A stretch of DNA of 64,000 nt from assembly GCA_950295325.1 (NCBI GenBank), contig OX485807.1, positions 41,384,440-41,448,439 of the forward strand. Reading direction: 5' to 3'. The stretch comes from Polytrichum commune (lineage: Eukaryota > Streptophyta > Polytrichopsida > Polytrichales > Polytrichaceae). Below are positions 6,708 through 50,380 of this stretch, in pieces. The notes beneath the pieces were generated by a model that worked only from the letters and a program-made list of their open reading frames with translations, had not been told where the DNA came from and ran no database searches. How positions within the stretch are numbered: the stretch's first letter is position 1; every line of letters begins with the position of its first letter. A program made the position numbers and the translations under genes.

Positions 6708-7340
6708 GGCCCCGGGCTAGATCACATCTTCATTCGGCTGGGCCCCACGCCCTCCCAGGCCTCCTTCATTGCCCAATCTTCCTGCCCGCACCTGTGTGGG
6801 AAATCTTCCTCGTTGGGAACCAATGTGACAATACCCGGTCAAAATTACCAATACTCAAGTTGACATCACTTTCGTTATTCCCAAGTTAATTGATGGAGTT
6901 CCTTCACATGCCAAAGGAGCTTAATGACTGAAGTGATTGGACGCTCAATGACTTAAGTGACCGGGTATTGTCACATTGGTTCCCAACGAGGAGGTGTTCC
7001 CATGCAAGTGCGGGCAAGAAAACTGGACAATGAAGACTGGGAAATCTTCCTCGTTGGGAACCAATGTGACAATACCTAGTCAAAATTACCAATGCTCAAG
7101 AGTCAAGATGACATCACTTTCATTATCCCCAAGTTAATTGATGGAGTTCCTTCACATGCCAAAGGAACTTAATGGCTGAAGTGATTGGACGCTCGATGAC
7201 TTAAGTGACCGGGTATTGTCACATTGGCTCCCAACGAGGAGGTGTTCCCATGCAAGTGCGGGCAGGAAGACTGGACAATGAAGGAAGCGTACGTAGGAGG
7301 GGCGGGACCCAGCCGAATGAAGATGTGATCTAGCCCAAGG
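6708..7340. repeat. Compound foldback repeat
   Basis: The left end (gggctagatcacatcttcat from about 6714) is repeated inverted at the right end near 7337. Inside, an arm containing cgttgggaaccaatgtgaca appears four times in alternating orientation (about 6805, 6975, 7052, 7222). The order arm, spacer, inverted arm, arm, spacer, inverted arm suggests an inverted-repeat element that later duplicated one spacer-plus-arm block. Apparent frames in it are just the same repeat translated. Confidence 0.7.
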
Positions 7341-15909: not shown

Positions 15910-16232
15910 CACTAGTAGAAAGTGTGCCCCAAAAAATTGCAGCCAAAATTGGTTGCGGTTCTTTTGATCAGCCTAATCTGCAATCGCTAAATGATTACAT
16001 ATTTTCCTTTTTTGTTTTACAACTACAATTCTAAAATTTTGGGGCATGTAATATACTGTTGGAAAGGTATTTTTAAGACCTTTCCAACGGTATGCAACAC
16101 GCCCCCAACTTCATAAGATTTTAGTCACTAAATCAAAAAATTGTAGTAATTTGGCAACTACATATCAGGATGGTCAAAATAACCTCAGCCAATTTTGGTT
16201 GCAATTCTTTTTGGCATAATTTTCTACTATGG
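15910..16232. mobile_element. CACTA-type miniature element, copy 1
   Basis: It starts cactagtagaaa and ends ttttctactatgg, close to the complement of the start; CACTA transposons share such ends. The interior is an imperfect palindrome: caaaattggttgcggttctt near the left end is mirrored by cagccaattttggttgcaat near the right. Flanks are cca and cta, a decayed 3 bp duplication. The element at 39645 is the same family. Confidence 0.75.
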
Positions 16233-25606: not shown

Positions 25607-28600
25607 ATGGTGGGATCGATGACAGTCCCAAAGGCTGCAGCTGCATCATTGGTGGTGGTTGTGATTTGTGCGCTGCTGGGACTGAATCGGTTGGACACAG
25701 CCCAGGGTGCCATCCCGGAGCATTTGGTGAGCGAGTTGCCAGGGCAGCCGGCCGTGAACTTCACTCAGTACGCGGGCTACATTAATGTGGATGAAGCGAA
25801 CGGCCGCAACATTTTCTACTGGTTCACGGAAGCCGACAGCAAGAAAGCTTCGTCTCTACCTCTTGCCTTCTGGTTCAATGGAGGTAAGATTATCGGAAAC
25901 CCACTCAACTTTGTTCTTCGAAAACGCTGGTTTCGATCGAAACGGAGTGAGTTCGGGAAGCCAAGGATAAAAGAATAGAATTTCGGGCTTGGCATGTGCC
26001 TCGCCTAACCTGTTCGTGGAGCGAGCTCGTTTTTGTTTGAAAGGTTGGTTGGTCCTTTTATTTTTAATCGGGTAGAATCGTCCAGACTTTCTCAACTCCG
26101 ATCCCATCCAAGATGGCGGTTTTGTAATGCTTGAAACCTCCATTTCATAACCTTTCATCTTGTTTTCTTCAGTTGTAAGTAAAAACGAAGAAAGGAGATC
26201 CCAACCTTGAAACCAAACTCCTTGAGGTCGGTCAGGCACATGTGAAGGTCGAAATTCTTTTACCTTGGTATACCGATCTCTGTTTCGATCGAAACGGGCG
26301 TTTTCAAAACGTGTGTAGCTGCCTCCCCTTCCACTCATCATTTCTTCGCCTTGCTCATGTTTTGAAACTGCCAACAATGGTGTTTGCAACTTTGTTTAGG
26401 CTACAAATTCGGGAATGGAAGGAAGGCCTGTTCGAAATTCAGATTTAGATCTGTCTTTCCTTCCATGTGCTTGAAACGGTGCAAGAGCTTTGGTTCATGG
26501 AACTTGTTTTAGATTGATTTTCAAGTTATATAAGAAAGATTAAAAACCCAAAAAAAAAAGTGATAGAAAGACTACTCTATGGCGTGAATTATGGTGTTGC
26601 TTCATTTTCATTTTCGAGTTGGTCCAAGTCTAAATCTAATCCCGAAACGGACTTTACAAGAATTAGAAGCCCCCAAGACTATTCCCTCCTTTCGAAGGCA
26701 CACGCCTTGAAAGGACGCAGGCGAGACGGTTGCCGCCTATCTATCTCGCCCAAAGGTAAGCCTCTAGGTTCCCACATGGGTGGTTGAAAATTTCCGGTTT
26801 ACCCGGACTAGCCCCACTATGATTGATTGGGTGGACCATAGGTGGTATGGTGCACCAAAAATCAAGTGCTAGGAAGGTTATCCATCCGACCAAGTACTAT
26901 TCCGGCCTTAGGCGGCTTAACCCCTCGGAGTTCCCATGGGATTCCGGGTTAGGGCCTTGGGTTTAAGCCACCCCTTCAAGTCACATCCGACTTGAAAATA
27001 ATACTTCAAGTTTAAGTTTGGGATTGAACTCGAAGATCATCAATGCCCCAAATAAAGCAGGGAGGACCTTGAGATAAAGCTCCTTAAAAATCTCTTCCCT
27101 TGGCCGGCCACCATTAAACTTGCAAGCTTGAGCGCAAGTTGTGAACAAAGGGAAGAATTTTCTTACATCAAGTCGCCATGAGTTTTTGTGCTGATGATAT
27201 ACTGTTGTGAGTGGAGGAGTCAACCTTTCGCTCTTATTTCCAGGATCAATCAGGATAGGCAATGCTGAATCATCTGAGTTGCAAAAAAACTCCCTTGAGT
27301 TGTTTCCTAAGAACATCAAATTTTGTGAAGGATCTTGATGAGTAAAATATGTGGGATGGTATGATCGCAGGCCCCGGGTGCTCATCGGTCGGAGATGGAT
27401 TGTTGTCTGAGTTGGGTCCATTTCGAGTCTCCAGCTCTGAAAATCTTACACTCAACCCCCATTCCTGGAACAAAGGTACCAAGCATTCTCCACCTGATTT
27501 GACAGACAAAAAAGAAAGAAACACATTTCTCGGTATTATCCAGTGTTGGAGTGTATCCGTTTTTTTTTTAAAAAAAAACTAAAAACTATTCGGGTATCTA
27601 TAATGAGGACTCCAATTTTGTTGACGCCAGTAGGGTATGGGTTATTTCATGGTATTTTTGTTTTCGATACCGTTCGGGCATATGTATTATGCAAGAGCCT
27701 TCGTACCTAGGTTTTAGAAACGATGCTTGTTTCAAGGTTGCCGAAATGAGGATAGACTTACAAGCTCTTTCTCTGGTGTCTTTCAAATGTCCAGAGTTGA
27801 GGAATGGTCGTGGAAGAATTTGTATTGATGAAGATTCAGAAACCATCCACATGTAAATTTCTCAGTGTGCAACTTATTTGTACATTGGCCCATCAGTGGT
27901 AGTCCCAAAAATCTACAAAATGCATCAAAGCTCAGAAAATACTTGATTTTGGATAGCATTAGCCTCAATTTAAGCAAGATTTTATCTAATCTCAAATTTC
28001 AGGAAGTTAAAATGAAATGTTGAAATTTGACACCATAATTTGTAAGTCCCTGCTGCAGCTGCCAATATGATCTTCGTGGAGTCTCCCATTGCGGTTGGTT
28101 TCTCGTATTCCAGCACCAAGTCTGACTATGGAGCCTTCAGTGACGCACAAACAGGTGAAAACCTACCACCTACTTTGAGGTGGATTATCAGATACATACA
28201 TTAGTATGGGAAGACATGAATCGTTCCTATTTGAATGTATACATTAAAATTTTCATTAGAGTGGTTGTTCAAGAATCAGAATTTGGGGCTGTGGTGGTTC
28301 CAAGAATCTCTCCTCGTTTATTTTCACAATTCCTGTATGTCAACAGGGGTCTTAAATTTCTTCACCTCTGTACCAATATCTAGGATTAGGGTAGGTGTTT
28401 CACTTTCACCTGTGGTGTCATTCACAGCTATCCAAAATACTGGACAGAGGTGATAAACTTCAGAGCCCTTTGTGATTGTTCCTTCAAGATACTATTTTCT
28501 TTCCTTCCTTTAAAATATCTCTCAATAGGTTTTCATTACCCGAGTGGTTGTTGTGGTCGATTTGCTCCCACATTGTCCTGTGTATCTATGATTCATCACC

Positions 28601-31600
28601 TCTGTCCCAATATCTAGGATTTTGGTAGATGTACCACTTCACCAGTCTACATACTGGTGGACAGAGGTGATGATGGGACTTCATTCAGGCCCTTGTGCTT
28701 GGTCTTTAAAACATCCCTTTCTGACTGCTGTGGTTGGGATTTGCAGCGGCCGATGCCTATACCTTTCTGGTGAATTGGTTCAAAAGTTACCCCGAGTACA
28801 CCAAAAATGATATGTACATTGTTGGTGAAAGTTACGGCGGTAAGTCATCACCCTCCATCATAATCTCACAATTGATTGTAAACCTCGGGAACTGCATAAC
28901 ATTTAATTTTCCACTCGACACTCATAACTATCTATGCTGGATATGAGAAGAACGACATTGCTTTTGTCATGTAAGTATGTTTGTCAAGCCCTAGGCTTTT
29001 GCATGGACTGCCTCAATATCTAGGATGATTGTAGATGTCCCACTTTCACCGATCTCTTCTTACCTGGGTATGTCTGTTTGTATTGGCAGGACACTACGTT
29101 CCGAATTTAGTTCAACAAGTAGTGCACCATAATGCAGAGCCTGGAGCATTTTTCTTGAATCTCAAAGGATTTGCGGTACTCCCCTTCACACTCATCCCAG
29201 CTTGTATAGCAAAAATTGGGAAGTTTCGGATGACTATGACAAAGTTCTAGGTTTGATGACGTTGTCACACAAACAGAACAAGAAATACAAGAAATACACC
29301 TCGGTCAACTTTTGCTTGGTACTCGGGTCAAATTTATAAAGAAGAACTCATACGACCCTCATAAATAGGAACTTGTTGCCTTGTAAAACCAACATTACAA
29401 CATCTCTTCATTACTTTTATCTTCTTGCTTAAACAGTACAAACATGGGCCAATGGACATTGTGAAAGTCAAGAGGCCGACATTGAACTGTAACATATCAT
29501 ATGCTTAGGTCCAATTTATGTACAATGATCAGAGCTTCTCTATCATCAAAAAAGACATCGCATGGGTGACCCTAAACTGAGATTCAAGTAAAATTGAACT
29601 TTTGCAGGGAAAATGGATTTACTAATATTTCAAGTTTCTGCAAACTTGCAATTTCCACTTCTGTATGTAACTAGTGTGGACCCATTGTTGGCTCGTTGAT
29701 TGCCATATATGCACAGCAGGCTCTACGGTGGCCATCGCAGCCAACATTGAATGTAGAATAGTTTCATTTATGAACAAATCAAGGTATAGAAACTTGTTAT
29801 GTATGTTTGGGCCACATATACAATCGATGGAATTAGCAACAATGTAGCTAAGTTTGTAGACAGATTACCCATACAACCCTGGTTGCATGCTTCTAGACCA
29901 AATTCCATGTGCTAATGACAATGATGCACATAGAATTTTGTTATAATTGCGAATGTTGCCACAGATGATTATTTCTGGACCTCCCAAAATTCCATTTCGA
30001 CTTGAAGAATTTCCGTAAGTTACCTTACCACACTAACTCCTAGTCGATTGTGGATTATGTATGTTGCAGGTGGGAAACGCATGGACAGATGCTTACTATG
30101 ATAATAAAGGCTCGGTCGAATTCTTCCAATCACATTCACTCATCTCGGACGAGACCTACAAAAATCTCATGGACAACTGCGATTTTGCACATGAATTCCC
30201 CATCGACGTGCCCAACACCAATGCCCTGTGCAACAATGCGACCCTCGTTCTTTACAATGGAGACTTGTCAGGGTTGGATGTCTACAATATTTATGGGCCC
30301 TCTTGCAACCTCCCCTCCAACAATGTCTCAAGCTGGGCCTTCATGAAAGGGGTAAGCTCCACTCACCAAATTTTAAGTGAGGTAGATGTGCCTAATTTGG
30401 TCACTTCTCTTAATCAGACACCTATATTTGAGTGGTACGTAGTTAGATGTGGCTCCAACAACGGATAACAAAAAGGCATCATATGTTTGAAAGAGATTGG
30501 ACTGCGTGTTCACAACATCATGATTACCATTCTAGACTCAATAGTCACCATAATTGAAGAGGTGTATATGACCACTTGATGAGGACGGGAATTTCGCTGT
30601 GATGGTGAATTATTTATTCATAGGAGCTCCAAAAATTGTGAGAAAAGTGGCTACAGCCTCCATATGGATTTGCTAACTGTTTCACATCCTAAGGAGAAGT
30701 GGCTAGTCAGAAGTAGTAACCATTAAAGACCCATCTACCTAAAGACTTGATTTTAAACACGTCTTGATTTTCAAATGGAAACCCGTATTGAATCCTTAGT
30801 GTCCCAGTTAGCGGATGTTGGGGTCAGACCACCACCACCACCACCACCACCATCACCACCATGTATTGGCTACAAATTGGGACATCACACCTAGTACCAG
30901 TTTAGGTGTGCTCTTTCTTTTTACCACATATCAAGGGGCTCTCCAAATAGTGGACAACAAGACAAAGTTACTTAAAACTACAATCTCAATGTGTTATATT
31001 AGCAACTCCTACGATAAGAAGGTGAAGCTCTCCTACTTACACAAACATTCTGAACATTCTGTTGTAAACCCGTTTATCTTGGGTTTCGTGTTAATTTTTC
31101 TTTCACAAGTATAACTGCTATTAACTTGTGGGTTCCTTGAGCAGAAAATTCCTAGTTTCCCAGCATCAGCAGCCATCGACCCATGCCTGGATTACGTGAC
31201 ACCCTATTTGAATACCCCAGCAGTGAAAGCGGCTCTGCATGTCCACCAAGACATTGAGTGGACTGAATGCAGGTGCGTAGTGCATCTAAGACCTGAACTC
31301 ACATTATATCCAATTTTAAGATCTAACTCCATGGTTACTTCTAAATCTTGTGGGTTACATATGAGTATCAATGACTCTTAAATGTCACACGAGTTGATGA
31401 TGTATGCGAATCACTTTTGAACGCTGTCAAAAACCTGAAATACATTTCTCAAGCTTTGTAGTCATAGAGCTTGTTGATATTCATGTGATCCCCCTAATCT
31501 TCCTGGAGCTCCCAAACCTACTTACGTTCCGGGTTCAATACAATACGCATGGAACCTCTAAATACATGCTTTGACTCCTGGGTTGCAAGTGAGTCGGGAG

Positions 31601-33133
31601 ACAACAAGACTGATGACCCATAGAGGGCTCTCGATTCCGACAAAGAGTATTTAGTTTCTCCCTCAACTTTCGCCATGTGTCATTCTTACATTGGCTGAGA
31701 CCAGTGACATGTAGCACTACATTTCGGCATGTTCAGCATCAGTGGATCGTCTTTATGTTTTATCGGTCCAAGGTTAATGTTAAAATGAAGTGTTCCTACT
31801 TGTATCACTTTGCGCACTCACTCTGATCGCCTGGTGTTGGCAGCAATGTTGTCTTCAACAAGTACAATAATACAGATATTCTGGCCTCCATGCTTCCAGT
31901 GTATCGTGAACTTCTGCAGACTGACCGGCTCCGAGTTTGGGTTTACAGGTATTCACATCCCCCCGTCTTCTTTTGGCCGAGCCAGAAAGGTATTTCTGCC
32001 CAAAATTTACATTGAGCTCACAATTACCATCTACGGACCACCATCATACATTTGAAAGCCTCAAATGTACGACTATGGTACAAAATGTTGGATTTAGGTC
32101 TGCCTACCAAGTTAGGTGAAACAATAAATGTTGAAAGTCATGTTCAATGCCCACATCAGTTGATGGAGAAGGTGAATTAAGCTTACAATTTGTCGACGCA
32201 GTGGAGATTTTGATGGAAGAGTGCCAACGACTGGCACGCGGGAATGGATCGCCAAGCTTGGACTTGCTGTCCGGAAGCCCTGGTACCCCTGGGTTCACGG
32301 AGGACCCCGAGAAACAAAGACAGGAGGAGGACAGGTACCTTTTAACCCTTAACCCAAAATGCCCAAGCGGTAAAGCACTTTCCATAATGTGCCATAAAAC
32401 AACATTTCCAAGGAGTGTTACATTTTTTTTAATACTATTGCAAAAGAGAAGCCTTGTGAGGCACCATCAAAGGATCAGATCAATAAGGTTAAAACTATAA
32501 CAATCACTTCTGGTCATAAAAATACTTGAAGTGAAAACGTTTGAAAAAGCACCATAATCACAAAAAACTCATTGTTTTGATGAGACAATTGATAGGTTTG
32601 GCTGACATCATATGTACCCACAGATTGTCAGAGAGCTGACCTTAACATGGTCTTGAAGTGACCAATCTGCCAATGCGTCTCTTGAGATGTGAGCACTTCA
32701 TGAGGTTAAGGGGATGACAAGTCATGCACTTTTATAATCAAGCTTTTGAAGGTGCTATACAATTTTGAAAGCTCCGTCTGAAGGAATGAAGTGCTCAGAA
32801 AAGCAAGACCCAAGTACCTTTGAGATTCAGAGTCCCATTTTAGCATGTTCAGGTTAGAGGGTATCATGGATCACTCATGGACATTGCAACATACTGCAAC
32901 TAAAGATCGAGTTTGATATCTTTTGGGATGTTTGATTTGTGCAGGTTGCTGGTTACACTCAGGTATATGAGAAAAACTTCACATTTGCTTCAGTCCGGGC
33001 TGCAGGCCACTTGGTGCCAGCTGACCAGCCTGCGCGTGCACTAGCACTCTTCAAGACATTCCTGTCGGGACAATTTCTGAAGCCTTTTGTATACCCAGCA
33101 AAGTCTTCCAACACAACAAATCCTACATTATAG
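25607..33133 (+). CDS. Serine carboxypeptidase-like protein (family S10), ten exons
   Basis: Exons: 25607-25883, 27371-27475, 28059-28154, 28747-28839, 29090-29175, 30070-30351, 31145-31272, 31844-31948, 32202-32334, 32945-33133. All introns are GT-AG, phases agree, and the total is 1,494 bases: 497 residues plus a stop. Residues 1-33 look like a signal peptide with a hydrophobic core (ASLVVVVICALLGL). NGGPGCSS is at 91-98, ESPIAVGFSYS at 135-145, GESYGGHYVP at 186-195 with catalytic Ser188, SGDFDGRVP with catalytic Asp395, and RAAGHLVPADQP with catalytic His457. Asn91, Glu106 and Glu187 match the carboxylate-binding residues of yeast carboxypeptidase Y, which favours a true peptidase over an SCPL acyltransferase. 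There are several N-glycosylation sequons (for example NFT at 51, NLT at 117). It probably acts in the vacuole or cell wall space, removing C-terminal residues. An ATG at 25619 is an alternative start. Confidence 0.93.
25919..26306. repeat. Inverted-repeat element in carboxypeptidase intron 1
   Basis: The left end gaaaacgctggtttcgatcg and the right end, read inverted as gaaaacgcccgtttcgatcg, are arms of an imperfect inverted repeat about 100 bp long. Both also share ccaagg and aaaagaat and a catgtgcctg-like block. No clear target duplication was found. This is probably a miniature DNA transposon lying about 35 bp inside the intron. Confidence 0.6.
26560..26975 (-). mobile_element. Cassandra-like 5S-containing repeat, copy A
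   Basis: On the - strand about 26850-26960 reads like 5S rRNA: ggaatcccatgggaactccg, ggttaagccgcc (box A region), then aatagtacttggtcggatgg and aaccttcctag (box C region), ending ggtgcacc. Upstream + strand sequence (gtgaattatggtgttgcttc, then cctcctttcgaaggc) is shared with the copy at 34925. 5S-like DNA embedded in a larger dispersed repeat is the hallmark of Cassandra TRIM LTRs, and this looks like a solo LTR or fragment. It lies in intron 1 of the carboxypeptidase gene, antisense to it. Confidence 0.65.
28355..29052. repeat. Three dispersed copies of a short repeat in carboxypeptidase introns 3 and 4
   Basis: A block of about 48 bp centred on ccaatatctaggatt and ending ccactttcacc or a variant occurs near 28370-28412, 28597-28642 and 29010-29050. 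The first two (intron 3) are also followed by a shared ctggacagaggtgat block, so about 230 bp was duplicated there. The third lies in intron 4, separated by exon 4. Confidence 0.7.
30420..30600 (+). repeat. Dispersed repeat copy in carboxypeptidase intron 6
   Basis: The block atgtttgaaagagattggac, tcacaacatcatg and ctcaatagtcaccataattg is shared with 61200-61340 (+) and, inverted, with 41930-42070 and 12560-12750. Reading frames in two of the copies keep a weak CG.K....DMC.K pattern, so it may derive from an old coding element, but I cannot name it. Confidence 0.5.
30829..30862. repeat. (CCA)n microsatellite
   Basis: About eleven ACC/CCA triplets with one interruption, inside carboxypeptidase intron 6. 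Confidence 0.9.
32690..32870 (+). repeat. Dispersed repeat copy in carboxypeptidase intron 9
   Basis: It shares gtgagcacttcatga, a tataatcaagcttttgaag block and a gtcccattttag-like block with 9860-10060, in the same order and similar spacing. Confidence 0.5.
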
Positions 33134-34608
33134 GGTGAAGTAAAAGTCAATTTATAAAGCCTGTCCACCACAACCACACTGATTCATCATTCTAAAGAAA
33201 CCTAGGATATTTTGGGTTTCTAGCTGATAACTCAGCAAAATTACCTTCATGGATCTTTGAGGTAGAATATATTGGGGCTCCAACAAAAGGAATAGAAGAG
33301 GGTTGCAAACAGTGATTTGCACATTGCTTGCCTTCTCAATAAGTTCGCTCCCTGCCCTGACTTAGTCTTCAACTTGCAATTCAAGATAAGGCCCTCTAAT
33401 GTCTGGGCAACACCCAAAGCATGACATTTTCTGTGATTGCAATAGACAGTTTCATGCAACAAATTATACTTTTCTGTAGTGCCTTTCACTGTGACCACAA
33501 TCTCCTTCCACCTTAATTACCTCATAGAGATTGCACATGGATTTATGAGGGAGGGAGGGGGGCTACTTGGTTATTTTATGACTCCGGCACTTCTGACTTT
33601 GAAAATCATAGCAGCAACTGGGGAGCCCAAAAAATTCCATAGTTTGTTGTTAAAGTCTCATGTCACATTTGCGTATCCAAGAAATATCCTAACTCTCAGA
33701 CCCAAGTTGAAAATCATGGCAAACAGCAAGTACTAATCACCTAAGACACATTTACGTATGATGCTTGGTCTTTCATAGACATTGAATCTATCTGCATGTA
33801 GTCTTACCTGGAAGTTTAAAGCTCTACTTTTGGGAAACATCTGTATCCTCAGTTATTGAAATTCACAGAATCTATGAATTCGTAGCCTCGAAATATTTTG
33901 AAAAGGTCTCCCTGGACCAAACTCTCATCCAAAATGTAAGACTTCTTAATAACATTCTCCACTATACTTCACTCCCAGAGACTAAACAGGAAACAAGCTC
34001 ATCACCCAGTACAACAAGGTACAAACATATGTGGCTGGCTTGAAAACCTCCAACTCTTTTTGGGTTCCCACTGACATAAACTCTTCCATATAGAAGGCCA
34101 AAACAGTGTGGTCATGAGTGTAATCAATTTCCACATCATGTGGTGTTACTTTCGTATGTAGTTGAGTTAGATTTTTTTTTGGTCCTTTCATTTGAGTGGC
34201 ATACTGCCCCAATCTTACAAGCACAAAGACGTCAACCAAATTCAATGTCAAAGTGCTGGAGCAGGCATAAGAAGCCTTTCATTCTCCCCAAAAGTCTTAA
34301 GAGGCAGTAGAAAGTGGTAAACTGGAATAATAGATTACCTAAAATGGTCAGAAGTTTCTTCTGTCTTAGCCTTCATGAGCAGAGGTGCAACGTGGAGAAA
34401 CTTATGACTTGGTTCTGACAAAATTCAGTTTACTGGCTGATCTATACTCTACTTATAACATTCAGAATCTTATATTACATAAGCTTCGAGCTCCTACAAC
34501 CTAAAATTCTCTGCAAGTAGCATGTTGCTCCTACTCAAAGCAAATGAATGGTACATGATACAAACAAACATACAAAACTTTCAAGTAGTGGACACTCCGT
34601 GGTTAGTA
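33134..34608. other. Intergenic between convergent genes
   Basis: This holds the 3' flanks of both genes. No canonical aataaa stands close to the carboxypeptidase stop, and AT-rich candidates for polyadenylation are too many to choose from. No other gene is recognised. Confidence 0.5.
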
Positions 34609-37576
34609 CTACGCCGCACCAGTAGAAGATACCTCGTATCGTACCTCCTCCATAGATTCATGGATTGCTGTCCTTGCTTCTTGTAAAACCCGTGTAGCTT
34701 CCTTGTAGGCAGCATCATATTCAGCCTCCAATTCTGCTAGCTCCAAGGCACTGTTCTCTTCCTCGTGACTGTGAGAGCACTGCTGTTGCCCACTCTTGTT
34801 TGCATGTGCGTGTGCACGTTCTGAGGGCCGGCCTGCCTTTCGTAAGACTTGAAGTGTGGCAGTCTGTGAACAGGAAAGAAAGTGTCAAGGCAGAGAAGAG
34901 GTGATTCCGATGTTGCCACCGGCATGAATTATGATGGTGTTGCTTCATTTACGAGGTGGTCTAAGTCTATATGTAAACCTGAATTGGGCATCACAAAAAT
35001 CAAAGTGCCCCTGAAGACTAATGCCTCCTTACAAAGGTGAAAACCTTGCACAGCCACAGACAAGCTGGTCTGCACCAATCTCCCCCAAGGGCAAGCCCCT
35101 GAATTCCCCCATGGTTGGTTGAAATCATCCAGTGTACCTAAAGACCCCCACTATGATTGGGTGGACCAAAGGTGGTAGGGTGCACCGGAAATCAAGTGCT
35201 AGGAAGGTCACCCATCTAAGCGCTATTCCAACCTTAGGCTATATGTAATCCCAAAACAAGCTCCATGAGATTTAGAGGGATCATCATGACTACCGCCTCC
35301 TTTCAAAGGTGATCACCTTGAACGGGCATGGACAAGCAAGCCAACACCTATCTCCCCAAGGGCAAGCCTCTAGGTTCCCACATAGTTGGTTGAAAATATC
35401 TGGTACACCCGGATACCACCACAATGATTGGGTGGACCGTATGTGGTAGGGTGCATCGGAAATCAAGCCTAGGAAGGTCACCCATCCAAGTACTATTCCG
35501 GACCTATTGCGGCCTAACCTCGAAGTTCCCATGGGATCCGGGTTACGGCCTTGGATTTAAGCCACTCTTGAATCTAGGCAATCTTCATGTAGTGTGATCC
35601 TTGTACAGATCAAAGAACTCAAAAAATCATAGAACATACGGAGGGTTCCACCAGGTAGAAATTGTCAGTAATCACAAGCACCACGATTGTGGTGCAACCT
35701 GATAAAATACTTTGAAACCAAGTACAACTTTACCGTAAGGTGCTGTCTGGTTTAACACAATTTAATTATTCTCTGGAAGAACTTTTCCACATATCGTATC
35801 CACATTGGTCAAGACCATTTTCAATTCAGCATGGAAATTAGCTTCGACATGCAAAGTGTTGAACCAGACAGCACTCTACAATAATGGCCTTTCCGGCACT
35901 CACCATGCGCAGATTCTGCTTCTCTTGTGTCTGCACTTCTTGAAGGACACCTGCCAGATCATTCCTGCCAAGTTCTTTCAGTTCTGCTTGTATATCAAGA
36001 ACCTGCACATCAAATGGCAGCAGAATAACCCAAGTTAGTTAGTAATCAACTCATGGTTGCATTCTCAAAAAACTGACAATTCAAGTTAGTCGTTGCAAAT
36101 ATAACATGTTCAAACTTCCTGCCAACAACTATCTTGCTCCCTTACCATTGAAATCCATACAATCATTCCTAGGGAAACTCACCTTTCTTGAGCAGTCGTT
36201 AAAATCTTTAGTGATCCTGCCACAGAGCTGTTGGAATGAATGCTCTGACCCTGTCTTCAAGTAGTCTGTAAATCCACTGCACATCCAGCCATTGTATGTT
36301 GCTTTATATATTCCAACCCATTTGATTCCTCCAAAGACTATTTGGCACCAGAATAAAACCAACTGGATTACAGGGATAATGGACTTCCAGCTGAGTGAGC
36401 CTAACAGTCCTTTTTCAGTAATGTCAATATGGAATTTTAGCATGTTTTTGAAGCAACTGTGTAGTGAACGAGTCAGAATGCCTCCACAATATCATCTAAC
36501 CTAAAGGTGAAAATAACTACCACTGAATTTACTCATAACATTGTTGGGACTCTTTGACTTGAGTAGCAGGTTTTTTTGTTGATCTATGTTCACACTTAAC
36601 AAAAATGTGATGTGATCCTCTGAATTACGACCCAAAAAAACAATAACTGACATGCATGAGGATCACAAGTTGCTACACCAATCCACCAACATCATCACAT
36701 CTTATTAGTATGAGTATAGAAGCAACAAAGGAATTCGGCTCTATAGTTCACAAAAACTCAATGTACAAAAACTCGCGTGTCCAATTAATACTGAGGGCTC
36801 CATCAAGTTCCTAGTACCAACCCAACTGAGAGACTTTTTGTAATGAAGGCTCCTGATGTATGAAGAATAACTGTGTATTTAGAAAGTATGATTTAGCTAC
36901 CGTAACTACGAATAAGGGCAATGGATTGTGGTAAAATGTGCTTGATTGAGAGTATGAATCCTGTCTACAAAAGAGATGGTTAAGAAGAGACATCTGTTCC
37001 TAGTACCTCTGTAACTCAGAGTACAGTCCTGCCCGAACCTCCTGAACCTTAAGAAACTGATTCAATAGCTGCATCAAATAAATCACAGCCACTTTGTTAG
37101 CCTCTCAGCAACTCTTCACCAATGTCGAATTTTTCGTCTGCACACATCAAACAGTATAAATAGCATGAAGGTAGTATTAACTCAAATTCGGATTTCCTAA
37201 GCCATAGCCAATAGCTCCCATTGAAGGTTTCCCTCTAATAGCCTCAGGCTGGAAAATTACAGGCTAGTAATAAGCCCAAACTTGTCACAAATCTCAGTTA
37301 AATTACAGATTTCAAACCAGAACTAACCCAGAAAAATGCTTTCGTCAGTGCAGGAGTAACCCTAATATCCCCCAAGCACTCTAGACGGATTCTCTGGCTT
37401 TCCACGATGAGTTAGCAACATGTGATTCTTGATTATCTCACACTCCACATCTGGTAACATAAAAAATGAACTAACCAAACCAAAATTCAAAATAAGAATT
37501 TCACGTACAGTGCGAAAGATCATGCGGAGGGGAAAAAAATCATACATACCTGGGTGGTAGTAGTTGTTGTCGTCAT
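34609..37576 (-). CDS. REX1-B domain protein (DNA-repair family), five exons
   Basis: Exons on the - strand: 37576-37550, 37068-37007, 36276-36183, 36002-35904, 34863-34609. Introns are GT-AG, phases agree, and the total is 537 bases: 178 residues plus a stop. After a short poly-threonine start, residues 10-45 read LLNQFLKVQEVRAGLYSE followed by GFTDYL. Then come QQLCGRITKDFNDCSRK, LKELGRNDLAGVLQEVQ and EKQNLRMTATLQVLRKAG (to about residue 105). This pattern (F..Q..R...Y..L..GF..YL, then Q.LC...T..F, then LA.VL..VQ..E...L..TATLQ.LRK) is the REX1-B family, named from the Chlamydomonas locus required for excision repair. The last 70 residues are His- and Glu-rich (HSHEEE) and predict a coiled coil; no signal peptide is seen. 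It is convergent with the carboxypeptidase gene. Confidence 0.87.
34925..35275 (-). mobile_element. Cassandra-like 5S-containing repeat, copy B
   Basis: This lies in REX1-B intron 4. It begins like copy A (atgaattatgatggtgttgc), has an agcccctgaattcccccatg block, and near 35160-35240 carries the inverted 5S-like segment: gtgcaccggaaatcaagtgc, then ggaaggtcacccatctaagc. The box A end is lost, because sequence after ccaaccttaggc diverges. It is truncated and followed directly by copy C. Confidence 0.6.
35285..35575 (-). mobile_element. Cassandra-like 5S-containing repeat, copy C
   Basis: This best-preserved copy, also in REX1-B intron 4, has a - strand 5S-like segment at about 35450-35540. It reads ggatcccatgggaacttcga, ggttaggccgcaat, then aatagtacttggatgggtga and ccttcctaggcttgatttcc. 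The stretch ggatgggtgacct is identical to the box C region of plant 5S rRNA. It starts at cctcctttcaaaggtgatca, so it lacks the first part of copies A and B. The 5S sense runs along the host transcript here, opposite to copy A. Confidence 0.68.
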
Positions 37577-46341: not shown

Positions 46342-47719
46342 TAACTTTTTGATCGATAATTCTTATTTAAACCAAAATTCTAACTAGGTGGTGCAAGCAT
46401 GAAATTGGTTAGCATGCGTACAAGCTAGCTACCTCACATATTAGCTATTTCTCTTCATCAAGTAACACATATACAACATAACCACTCAAAGTGTATACTT
46501 ACTTTAATTGAAGTCTTAACCCCTAAAGGCCGAGAAGGACATAACCACCTTTACCCAACCAAACCAACATACACATTTATGTTATAATCCTCTAATTTGG
46601 GACATATGGACATATGAATTGTTATGGGAACAATCCTAGCGCTACAAAGATGCCACCCGTACAATCATATCCATAAATAGAGGTACATATTTGCTTCAAT
46701 AAGCTACGTAATTGGGATGAACCTTTTCAAACGATGTTGGAGAGATTTTGCTTGGGCCTCTAACTCCTAAAGACCAAACCGAATTATTCCCAAATGGTCT
46801 AAAACCATTTAGTTCGAGTTTAATCCAATTCAAAAAGCTTATCAAAGAAAAAGATGGATATGACCATACGAGTGACATATATGTGGAGTTAGGATTGTTC
46901 CTACAAAATTTCATGTGTCCACGTTTCCCAAATCGAAGGATTATAACGTAAACGTGTACATTGGTATTGTTAGGCAATAATGACTTCTTGGACAAAAAAA
47001 AACCCACCTCAACCTGTAGGGTTAAGGGTGAGTTGGGAATTGTGGGTGGATCCTAAGTTAGGTCGCCTTCTCAACATGGAGCAGTTGTAGTGCCAAGTAC
47101 AATACTTTAATATACAACACTATCCTTTTAAGTTATAGAATATGGAAACTTCAAGGGTAGTCTTGGAATTTGGGGTTTCTATGTAAACTCATCCATTGTA
47201 AATGAAGGAAAAAAAATCTCGTGTAAGGTTGAGGACCAATTCACTTGAATTAGGCTCCACTACACCTTTTATGATATTTAGTGTCATGTGCACTATTTTC
47301 CAAAGGGCCCAAACTAGATGCCTAAAGGTCTCAAAGTGTCACGTCTATTGATTGTCAATACGATACTATCCATCAACATCAATAAATCTCTTGAGTGAGA
47401 AATTATCTACATTATGACATTCAACATAGCACATTGGGGTACTTGAGATAATAGAGTTGCGCTTTAGTATGGAAAGGGAAGATCGTACCGAACACACCAA
47501 TGGCAAGAGTCATTTGTTTACGTTTCAGTACACAAGAGGAAGACAATCTTGAGCATACTAATGCCAAGTGTCATGTGTGTACAATTCAGTCAACTTGTAG
47601 ACCATTGTGTAACACAAGCATACATCTCACAACACTATCGAAGACACCCGTGCCAAGATATCAACAAGCACACTTGAATGTCAAGCATCACAAGGTGACA
47701 CTACTGACGAAGTCGTTGG
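46342..47719. other. Intergenic leading into the satellite
   Basis: 47485-47719 carries the non-tandem relative of the satellite flank, also seen at 38615. Nothing else was recognised; two overlapping frames near 46696-47007 lie on opposite strands and show no motif. Confidence 0.45.
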
Positions 47720-49475
47720 TCATTAGTGTAACCTAGCATACACCTAATAAAAAAAGGGCAAATGGCACTATTTTGCATGTGACCCTAAATACCTTGAACG
47801 GTGTAGAATGAGTTCGGGATTGTCGATGCTAATCTTGGAATCAAAAAATTCTCCTACATGCTAAACCACAATTTCAATACGCATGATCATTAGTGTAACC
47901 TAGCATACGCCTGAAATTTAAAGCTATTTATTTTTAAAAAAACATGGCAAATGACATTCATTTGCATGTGACCCTTAATGCCCTAAACAATGTAGAATGA
48001 GTTTGGGATTGCTGATGCTAATCTTGGAATCAAAACATCATCTACATGCTAAACCACGACTTCAATACGCATGATCATTAGTGTAACCTAGCATACGCCT
48101 GATAAAAAAAAAAAAACAAGATAAATGACATTCTTTTGCATGTGACCCTAAATGCCATAAATGATGTAGACCGACTTCGGGATCGCCGATGCTAATCTTG
48201 GAATCAAAACATCATCAACATGCTTAACCACGATTTCAATACACATGATCATCAGTGTAACCTAACATATGCATGGGGAAAAAAACAGGGTAATTGACAC
48301 TCTTTTGCATGTGACCCTAAATGCCATAAATGGTGTAGATAGTTCGGGATCGTCGATGCTAATCTTGAAATCAAAGCATCACTGACATGCTAAACCACGA
48401 CTTCAATACGCATGATCATTAGTGTAACCTAACATACGCATGAAGGAAAAAAACAAGGTAAATGACACACTTTTGCATGTGACCCTAAATGCCATAAATG
48501 GTGTAGACTGAGTTCACGATCACCGATGCTAATCTTGGAATCAAAACATCACCTACATGCTAAACCACGATTTCAATACGCATGATCATAGTGTAACCTA
48601 GCATACCTCTTGGAAGAAAAAAAACAGGGTAAATGACATTCTTTTGCACGTGATCTTAAATGCCATAAACGGTGTAGACCGAGTTCGGGATCGCGGATGC
48701 TAATCTTGGAATCAAAGCATCACCGACATGCTAAACCACGACTACAATACGCATGCTCATTAGTGTAACCTAGCATACGTCTGGAAAAAAAGAGGTAAAT
48801 AACACTCTTTTGCATGTGACCCTAAATGCCATAAACGGTGTAGAATGAGTTCGCGATCGCCGATGCTAATCTTGGAATCAAAACATCATCGACATGCTAA
48901 ACCACGATTTCAATATGCATGATCATTAGTGTAACCTAGCATACGTCTGGGGGGGGGGGGAAACAACAAGGTAAATGACACTCTTTTGCATGTGACCTAA
49001 ATGCCATAAACGGTGTAGACCGAGTTTGGAATCGCAGATGCTAATCTTGGAATCAAAACATCATCGACATGCTAAACTACAATTTCAATACGCATGATCA
49101 TTAGTGTAACCTAACATACGTCTAGGGGGGGGGGGAACAACAAGGTAAATGACACTCTTTTGCATGTGACCTAAATGCCATAAACAGTGTAGACCGAGTT
49201 TGGAATCGCAGATGCTAATCTTGGAATCAAAACATCATCGACATGCTAAACTACAATTTCAATACGCATGATCATTAGTGTAACCTAGCATACGTCTGGA
49301 AAAAAAGAAAAAAGAAACAGAAGAAGAAGAAGAAGGTAAATGACACTCTTACACATGTAACCCTAAATGCCATAAACAGTGTAGACCAAGTTCGGGATGG
49401 CCGATGCGAATCTTGGAATCAAAACATCATCGACTCGACATGCTAAACCACGATTTCAATACGCTTGCATGATGG
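47720..49475. repeat. Satellite array, ten units of 166-190 bp
   Basis: The phrase gcatgtgacc marks units at 47776, 47964, 48138, 48307, 48475, 48646 (as gcacgtgatc), 48812, 48988, 49162 and, diverged, 49352. Each unit runs through aatgccataaacggtgtaga, gatgctaatcttggaatcaa, then catgctaaaccacgatttca and cattagtgtaacctagcata. Units are joined by a variable purine run (A-rich, or 10-13 G near 48950 and 49125), which explains most of the length variation. Confidence 0.93.
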
Positions 49476-49766: not shown

Positions 49767-49927
49767 CCCCTTTACCCTTTACCCTCACCCTTACCCTTAC
49801 CCTCAACCTTACCCTTACCCTTACCCTTACCCTCACCCTTACCCTCACCCTTACCCTCAACCTTACCCTTACCCTTACCCTCACCCTTACCCTTACCCTC
49901 AACCTTACCCTCACCCTTACGCTCACC
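49767..49927. repeat. Hexanucleotide array (CCCTTA/CCCTCA)
   Basis: About 27 units of ccctta, ccctca and ccctcaa are mixed in no fixed order. Its complement is TAAGGG/TGAGGG, which is not the plant telomere repeat TTTAGGG, although it looks similar at first glance. The long Arg-Val and Lys-Gly frames here are artefacts. Confidence 0.92.
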
Positions 49928-50380
49928 TTCAATGAACGGGGCGGGCGAACTCACTCTAGGTAGTTGGGTTCGCCATCCGGAGTTCCGTGTTGCGATGGCT
50001 TTTTACTTGCCGGCATTATCGTCGTTTTTTACCGACTAAGTTATATCGTGGTCTTTGGTGCGCATACTAGCTTACTTATGTCGTTTGAGTAGGGAAATGA
50101 TGCTTTCGATATAATATTATGGCGATGGGTAACTTCGAATGGTAATTAACACACACTAATTAAACAAAACAATCGTAGTTGCAAATGAACTAGTTGAGTT
50201 TGAGAAACGATTGGGTGAAGTTCAAGGTTTCAAAAGGATTACCCATCATTTTAGAGGAAGATGTAGAACATGCCTCTGATTAATGAAGAAAGATTGAGAG
50301 ATCACAACATGTGACCGGTTGGACTTGGAAACACTAGGATTTGGATCGATTATGTCCAGAAATCCTCCCCGGACAGTGCC
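49928..50380. other. Intergenic, nothing recognised
   Basis: About 50305-50340 is an inverted copy of the short repeat near 11180. No gene is seen. Confidence 0.4.

Follow-up and report, generated by a model that had tools for sequence, protein, structure and literature searches.

Three intronic repeats of Polytrichum commune as probable decayed copies of a dispersed short interspersed nuclear element with a 5S rRNA head

Genomic setting of the repeats

Three related repeats, copies A, B and C, lie in introns of two genes on contig OX485807.1 of Polytrichum commune, within a stretch of 64,000 nt (positions 41,384,440-41,448,439 of the forward strand) that is called the window throughout. The contig is labelled G000:C5 in the 408-Mb assembly, 99.6% of which (406.1/407.8 Mb) is made up of seven large contigs (C1-C7), which may reflect n=7. 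Copy A is antisense within an intron of a carboxypeptidase-like gene, and copies B and C adjoin head to tail, in the sense direction, within one intron of a minus-strand gene that the original prediction had labelled REX1-B (Table 1). That prediction described this arrangement correctly and took the repeats for relatives of Cassandra, a plant repeat that carries a 5S internal promoter. We conclude instead that they are very probably decayed copies from a family of short interspersed nuclear elements (SINEs) that is dispersed in the genome and headed by 5S rRNA sequence, i.e., of the SINE3 class.

Table 1. Coordinates of the repeats, their 5S-derived heads and their host introns in the window
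Feature	Position	Strand	Description
Intron of carboxypeptidase-like gene, host of copy A	25884..27370	+	GT...AG between exons reading NGG/PGCSS
SINE copy A	26550..26973	-	Almost full-length; 84.6% to the consensus of the family (positions 1-373)
5S-derived head of copy A	26860..26973	-	Extra bases; box C altered to GGATGGATAACC
Intron of minus-strand gene, host of copies B and C	34864..35903	-	1,040 bp
TGCCTTGA, possible target-site duplication partner	34885..34892	-	Pairs with TGCCTAGA just upstream of copy C
SINE copy B	~34895-35239	-	Starts at ~consensus position 58; 5' end including box A gone, body and tail kept
SINE copy C	35236..35567	-	5' complete; 3' end absent past ~consensus position 336
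5S-derived head of copy C	35450..35567	-	Box C exact, box A altered, one additional base between A and C

The 5S rRNA-derived head

A host 5S gene (L031), found with Rfam RF00001 in the same genome, served as reference. Over most of its length copies A and C match it much better than chance would allow, with scores of 83 and 92 against maxima of 41 and 44 among 1000 dinucleotide shuffles each, and an angiosperm 5S sequence gave 188 and 208 at the same two places, the next best score elsewhere in the window being 116. The inverted segment that had been said to follow plant 5S rRNA is therefore borne out for these two copies, as is the exact box C sequence, GGATGGGTGACC, in copy C. Copy B is weak when taken alone (score 36, reached by 9 of 1000 shuffles). 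It is 79% identical to copy C over 214 bp and 73% identical to copy A over 335 bp, and judged by these alignments it is a relative of the two that has lost its 5' end.

The likeness is stronger in the consensus of the family described below, which scores 103 against the host gene (maximum of 1000 shuffles, 43) and is identical to it in 80 of 110 columns of a global alignment running from +1 to about +111. As far as this alignment can tell, the head is the whole 5S gene, beginning at 5S position +1. Across the promoter region (host positions 45-96) 45 of 52 bases are identical, and two one-base gaps, one on each side, cancel, so that box A, the intermediate element (IE) and box C stand at gene spacing in the consensus, a spacing that is not kept in the three window copies. 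At 21 sites where the host and the angiosperm sequence differ, the SINE agrees with the host at 11, with the angiosperm at 4 and with neither at 5, and has a gap at 1. The head thus tends toward the host's own 5S variants, which points to, without proving, a birth of the family from the 5S gene of this lineage.

Family structure and copy number

With copy C as query, and with 40 of 1895 first-look candidates scored, the genome yielded at least 41 matches (including copy C itself and copy B) at 78-100% identity, distributed over C1-C7. Thirty loci were fetched, among them that of the window. Of the 29 non-self loci, 27 show a single unit in the surrounding 1.5 kb or so to either side, the exceptions being L013, with a partial copy on the opposite strand, and L021, with a second copy on the same strand. 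The alignment comprised 26 near-complete copies, namely the 25 of these 29 loci that reach both ends and copy A, and is a biased sample, chosen by likeness to copy C.

The alignment starts and ends abruptly. The unit opens with (A)GGGTGG, given also as (A)GGGTGGCTTAAACCCAAGGCC, continues through the 5S promoter region into a body without 5S match, and closes in a common 3' end, given as ...GGAGTCGTCTTTC, ...CACGCCGGTGGCAACATCGGAGTCGTCTTTC and ...GGTGGCAACATCGGAGTCGTCTTTC, followed in most rows by TTTC or a T run of variable length; the tail of copy A is decayed and closes in a T run. Up to the tail the consensus measures 398 nt, of which the non-5S body takes up about 285 nt, and shorter forms of 342-370 nt occur among copies found by pattern. 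It had been predicted that the dispersed repeats share non-5S sequence and are not plain 5S pseudogenes, and this holds. A likeness to 5S rRNA across most of the gene is what plain pseudogenes or retropseudogenes of 5S rRNA would display; the aligned copies are units of about 400 nt that agree in their non-5S body and in their 3' end. Plain pseudogenes are ruled out by this common body beyond the 5S part, and we consider an origin of either kind hardly credible.

Divergence from the consensus ranges from 0.115 to 0.197 (Kimura two-parameter distance, K2P) in the 26 copies, with copy A at 0.152, and the median distance between copies is 0.27 (325 pairs). The sampled copies give no sign of recent activity. 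Genome-wide, a pattern made from the first 27 nt of the unit matched 682 places with at most 3 mismatches, and one from the last 26 nt matched 133 places with at most 2, the reversed controls matching none in either case. Among the 29 fetched loci 23 come within the head limit and 7 within the tail limit. These shares suggest that the genome as a whole may hold about 900 five-prime ends, a figure drawn from a biased sample.

Marks of insertion

Target-site duplications were sought in two sets of insertions by scoring the match between flanks. The first set was drawn from 31 placed insertions (the 29 loci, copy A, and copies C and B together), from which L016, L021 and L030 were excluded before the count for incomplete ends. 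Among the remaining 28, 13 reached a score of at least 7, compared with 3.6% of mismatched flank pairs, and the observed mean was reached by 0 of 20,000 permutations. For the second set, 18 of the 26 loci obtained from the tail and head patterns were entered, after exclusion of L047 and L049 (the same insertions as L005 and L004) and of L051, L055, L058, L060, L063 and L064 (truncated or odd); 16 gave output and 13 fell within the limits on ends and length. A score of at least 7 was found in 8 of these 13, compared with 2.6% of mismatched pairs (0 of 20,000 permutations). The longest duplications measure 14 bp (L027), 13 bp (L028, L052), 12 bp (L053) and 11 bp (L020).

Target-primed reverse transcription of the type carried out by long interspersed nuclear elements (LINEs) characteristically leaves tails and duplications of variable length together with 5' truncation. 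Truncation at the 5' end seems to have affected 6 of 20 copies found by their tail alone (L048, L050, L051, L058, L064, L065), while 9 of the 20 begin at consensus position 1-4; in L055, L059, L062, L063 and L066 earlier pieces lie further up, so that these copies reflect internal losses, repeats or interruptions. ARAGORN found no tRNA in the 20 tail loci, which thus gave no sign of a sister SINE that joins this body to a tRNA head.

From these features we would reconstruct the history of the family as follows. A source copy was presumably transcribed by RNA polymerase III (Pol III) from the 5S-type internal promoter of its head (box A, IE, box C), and the resulting RNA would close in a pyrimidine-rich (UUUC)n tail. 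The reverse transcriptase of a putative LINE partner could then copy this RNA by target-primed reverse transcription, which would account for tails of variable length, for target-site duplications and for the truncation of some copies at the 5' end. The family itself was probably born from this lineage's own 5S gene.

Several observations weigh against this reconstruction. The Rfam 5S model detected none of copies A, B and C in scans of the window and of positions 26000-36200. Scores below 7 were obtained for 15 of 28 insertions in the first set and for 5 of 13 in the second, and the window copies have weak duplications of their own, 6 nt for copy A and a score of 5.5 for the bracket TGCCTAGA/TGCCTTGA around copies C and B, which alone says little, since 5 is reached by 31% of mismatched pairs. 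Of the 133 tail places 20 were fetched and compared, 8 of them being read for open reading frames, and none proved to be a LINE with the 3' end of the unit. Two T4 runs within the consensus (at 172 and 313) could end Pol III transcription early, and the closest of 40 full-length alignments to the consensus, some of whose loci overlap, is 89.7% identical.

The same data bear on the identity proposed in the original prediction, under which the repeats would be solo long terminal repeats (LTRs) of Cassandra or of another 5S-bearing terminal-repeat retrotransposon in miniature (TRIM). Such an element would fit a short repeat about as long as an LTR that carries box A, IE and box C within a 5S segment, and Cassandra is known in ferns and angiosperms (PMC10853983). 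Its marks, however, are a pair of LTRs, a primer site for Met-tRNA and a non-terminal 5S core, which in the elements described in that source lies at 25-75% of the LTR and is never terminal (PMC10853983), whereas the 5S sequence of the Polytrichum repeats begins at unit position 1. Paired LTRs were not seen, single units being present in 27 of the 29 loci, and the three compared loci with a same-strand neighbour (L021, L074 and L056, the last overlapping L055) have no internal segment in common, so that no internal region that could carry a polypurine tract was found; the two copies of L021 are 73.7% identical, no closer than unrelated copies. Stretches common to the 3' flanks of L013 and L029, and of L015 and L027, start more than 200 bp past the unit. 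TG stands at the consensus start in 0 of 31 insertions, and the 3' end passes into (TTTC)n or T-rich tails. The best match to a Met-tRNA primer motif (12 nt) in the 31 flanks had 3 mismatches, compared with 4 in shuffled flanks, real and shuffled flanks being otherwise alike. Target duplications, which the original prediction had named as a check for Cassandra, are present, and they are variable and reach 14 bp. We therefore reject Cassandra LTRs, solo or paired, on account of the single units at 27 of 29 loci, the duplications, the tails, the terminal 5S sequence and the missing TG start and Met primer site, and regard any such TRIM as a very improbable source.

State of the copies in their host introns

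Copy C lacks its 3' end, copy B lacks its 5' end and the two are weakly bracketed by TGCCTAGA and TGCCTTGA; therefore the two may have been inserted together as one dimer or unit, or the pair may be the product of a later deletion. The insertion stops about 20 nt ahead of the 3' splice site of its intron (window 34864-34945, minus strand). Its supposed duplicated target, TGCCTTGAC, resembles a branch-site consensus, and the insertion may have shifted the position at which the host intron branches.

The original prediction had also held that the repeats could offer internal Pol III promoters inside these introns. Such initiation is unlikely because the promoters are damaged in all three copies: copy A has extra bases and an altered box C, copy B is without box A, and copy C has an altered box A and one extra base. 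Co-option of the SINE copies as Pol III promoters or regulators within both introns would be in keeping with their intronic location, with the exact box C of copy C and with the end of the C and B insertion so near the splice site. These points are opposed by the damaged promoters, by the divergence of the copies from the consensus and by an argument quoted in PMC3272025, according to which type 1 promoters depend on signals that lie upstream, silence being presumed for retroposed copies. Co-option is accordingly highly unlikely in our judgement, and the window copies are most likely inert passengers in their introns.

Another intronic feature of the carboxypeptidase-like gene is a pair of MITE-like repeats (resembling miniature inverted-repeat transposable elements) at window positions 28358-28457 and 28591-28675, which have the ends CACCTCTGT...ACAGAGGTG in common; the second gives weak, sub-threshold matches to microRNA families in Rfam.

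Other 5S loci and repeats

Among the matches that were scored (47 of 15430 candidates), host 5S genes (L031-L042) lie scattered, with one inverted pair 1.2 kb apart (L042). The surroundings of the 5S genes of L041 and L042, out to about 4 kb, yielded no 35S rRNA. Next to a degraded 5S sequence (L077) a large-subunit rRNA match is weak and under the cut-off, and a longer stretch gave no such match at the cut-off. Two tandem 5S-like segments, 184 bp apart, occur in L075 (G000:C2:59433000-59434500, at 594-703 and 776-889; 46 and 51.9 bits in Rfam) near exons of a C2H2 zinc-finger gene, an arrangement that we take to resemble a TFIIIA gene in which the exon that mimics plant 5S rRNA would be doubled. 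A second, perhaps broken, copy is present in L076 on C7. L073 (G000:C2:13970300-13971500, at 95-632) is made up of tandemly repeated units, each about 173-197 bp long, that contain short SINE-head or 5S pieces and a different spacer, and looks like a satellite-like derivative.

Elsewhere in the window, about 1 kb at 45319-46332 matches its own reverse complement at 93%, forming a long foldback or palindrome, and weaker foldbacks lie at 6714-7336 and 15913-16229. A tandem array with a 174-bp unit in about 8 copies (47717-49467) is followed by a TTACCC-rich array (49772-49931). Further away on the contig, fourteen light-harvesting matches with identical family scores stand within less than 100 kb on both strands (G000:C5:1751760-1846160). 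One light-harvesting protein of the genome has PDB chains 8htu and 7xqp, both moss proteins, as its best matches after a single chain of 620 residues, 9vfj.

Comparison with known systems

SINE3 elements have been reported from vertebrates and some insects (PMC7245038) and from Aspergillus (PMC5063351), and the SINEs of plants are described in reviews as tRNA-derived, "nearly all" of them according to PMC10741241. The annotation tool AnnoSINE does sort plant candidates by tRNA, 7SL and 5S heads (PMC8825457). A 5S-headed SINE of a plant was not found among the open-licence papers listed, and judged by these papers a SINE3 in a plant looks new, subject to what the 5S class of that tool contains. 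The Polytrichum family, which has at least several hundred copies, would be a new birth of the SINE3 class in a new kingdom, and some 5S-like matches in plant genomes may be SINEs instead of Cassandra or rDNA.

According to a suggestion reported in PMC10886601, Cassandra arose when a SINE3 inserted itself into an LTR. A plant SINE3 would supply the missing ingredient of that origin, and it makes the suggestion testable. Since the literature examined reports SINE3 from animals and fungi only, a wider proposal would be that the Polytrichum family is a land-plant SINE3, born independently and outside the tRNA rule, and that plant 5S SINEs of its kind gave Cassandra LTRs their Pol III promoter; we consider this wider proposal improbable.

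Like the tRNA-derived SINEs of plants (SINE2), the Polytrichum units are short, dispersed, non-coding and, by the reading preferred here, LINE-mobilised, and they differ from them in having 5S rather than tRNA sequence as their head. Cassandra TRIMs are likewise plant repeats with a 5S internal promoter, but their LTR pair, primer site and position of the 5S core were not found in the Polytrichum family. The Ajax TRIMs of nemerteans also use a 5S-derived promoter in a non-autonomous retroelement, which is, however, an LTR element with 5-bp duplications (PMC10886601). The resemblance to described SINE3 elements (HaSE3, SINE3-1_TC and the fungal SINE3-1_AO/AfuSINE3) extends to box A, IE and box C in a 5S-derived 5' head, an unrelated body, target duplications and dispersed copies (PMC7245038, PMC3272025, PMC5063351). 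The LINE partners of known SINE3 families are varied, being CR1 in vertebrates, RTE for HaSE3 and an I-clade element for SINE3-1_TC (PMC7245038). What sets the Polytrichum family apart from these is its plant host, a head that tends to the host's own 5S rRNA and a (TTTC)n tail.
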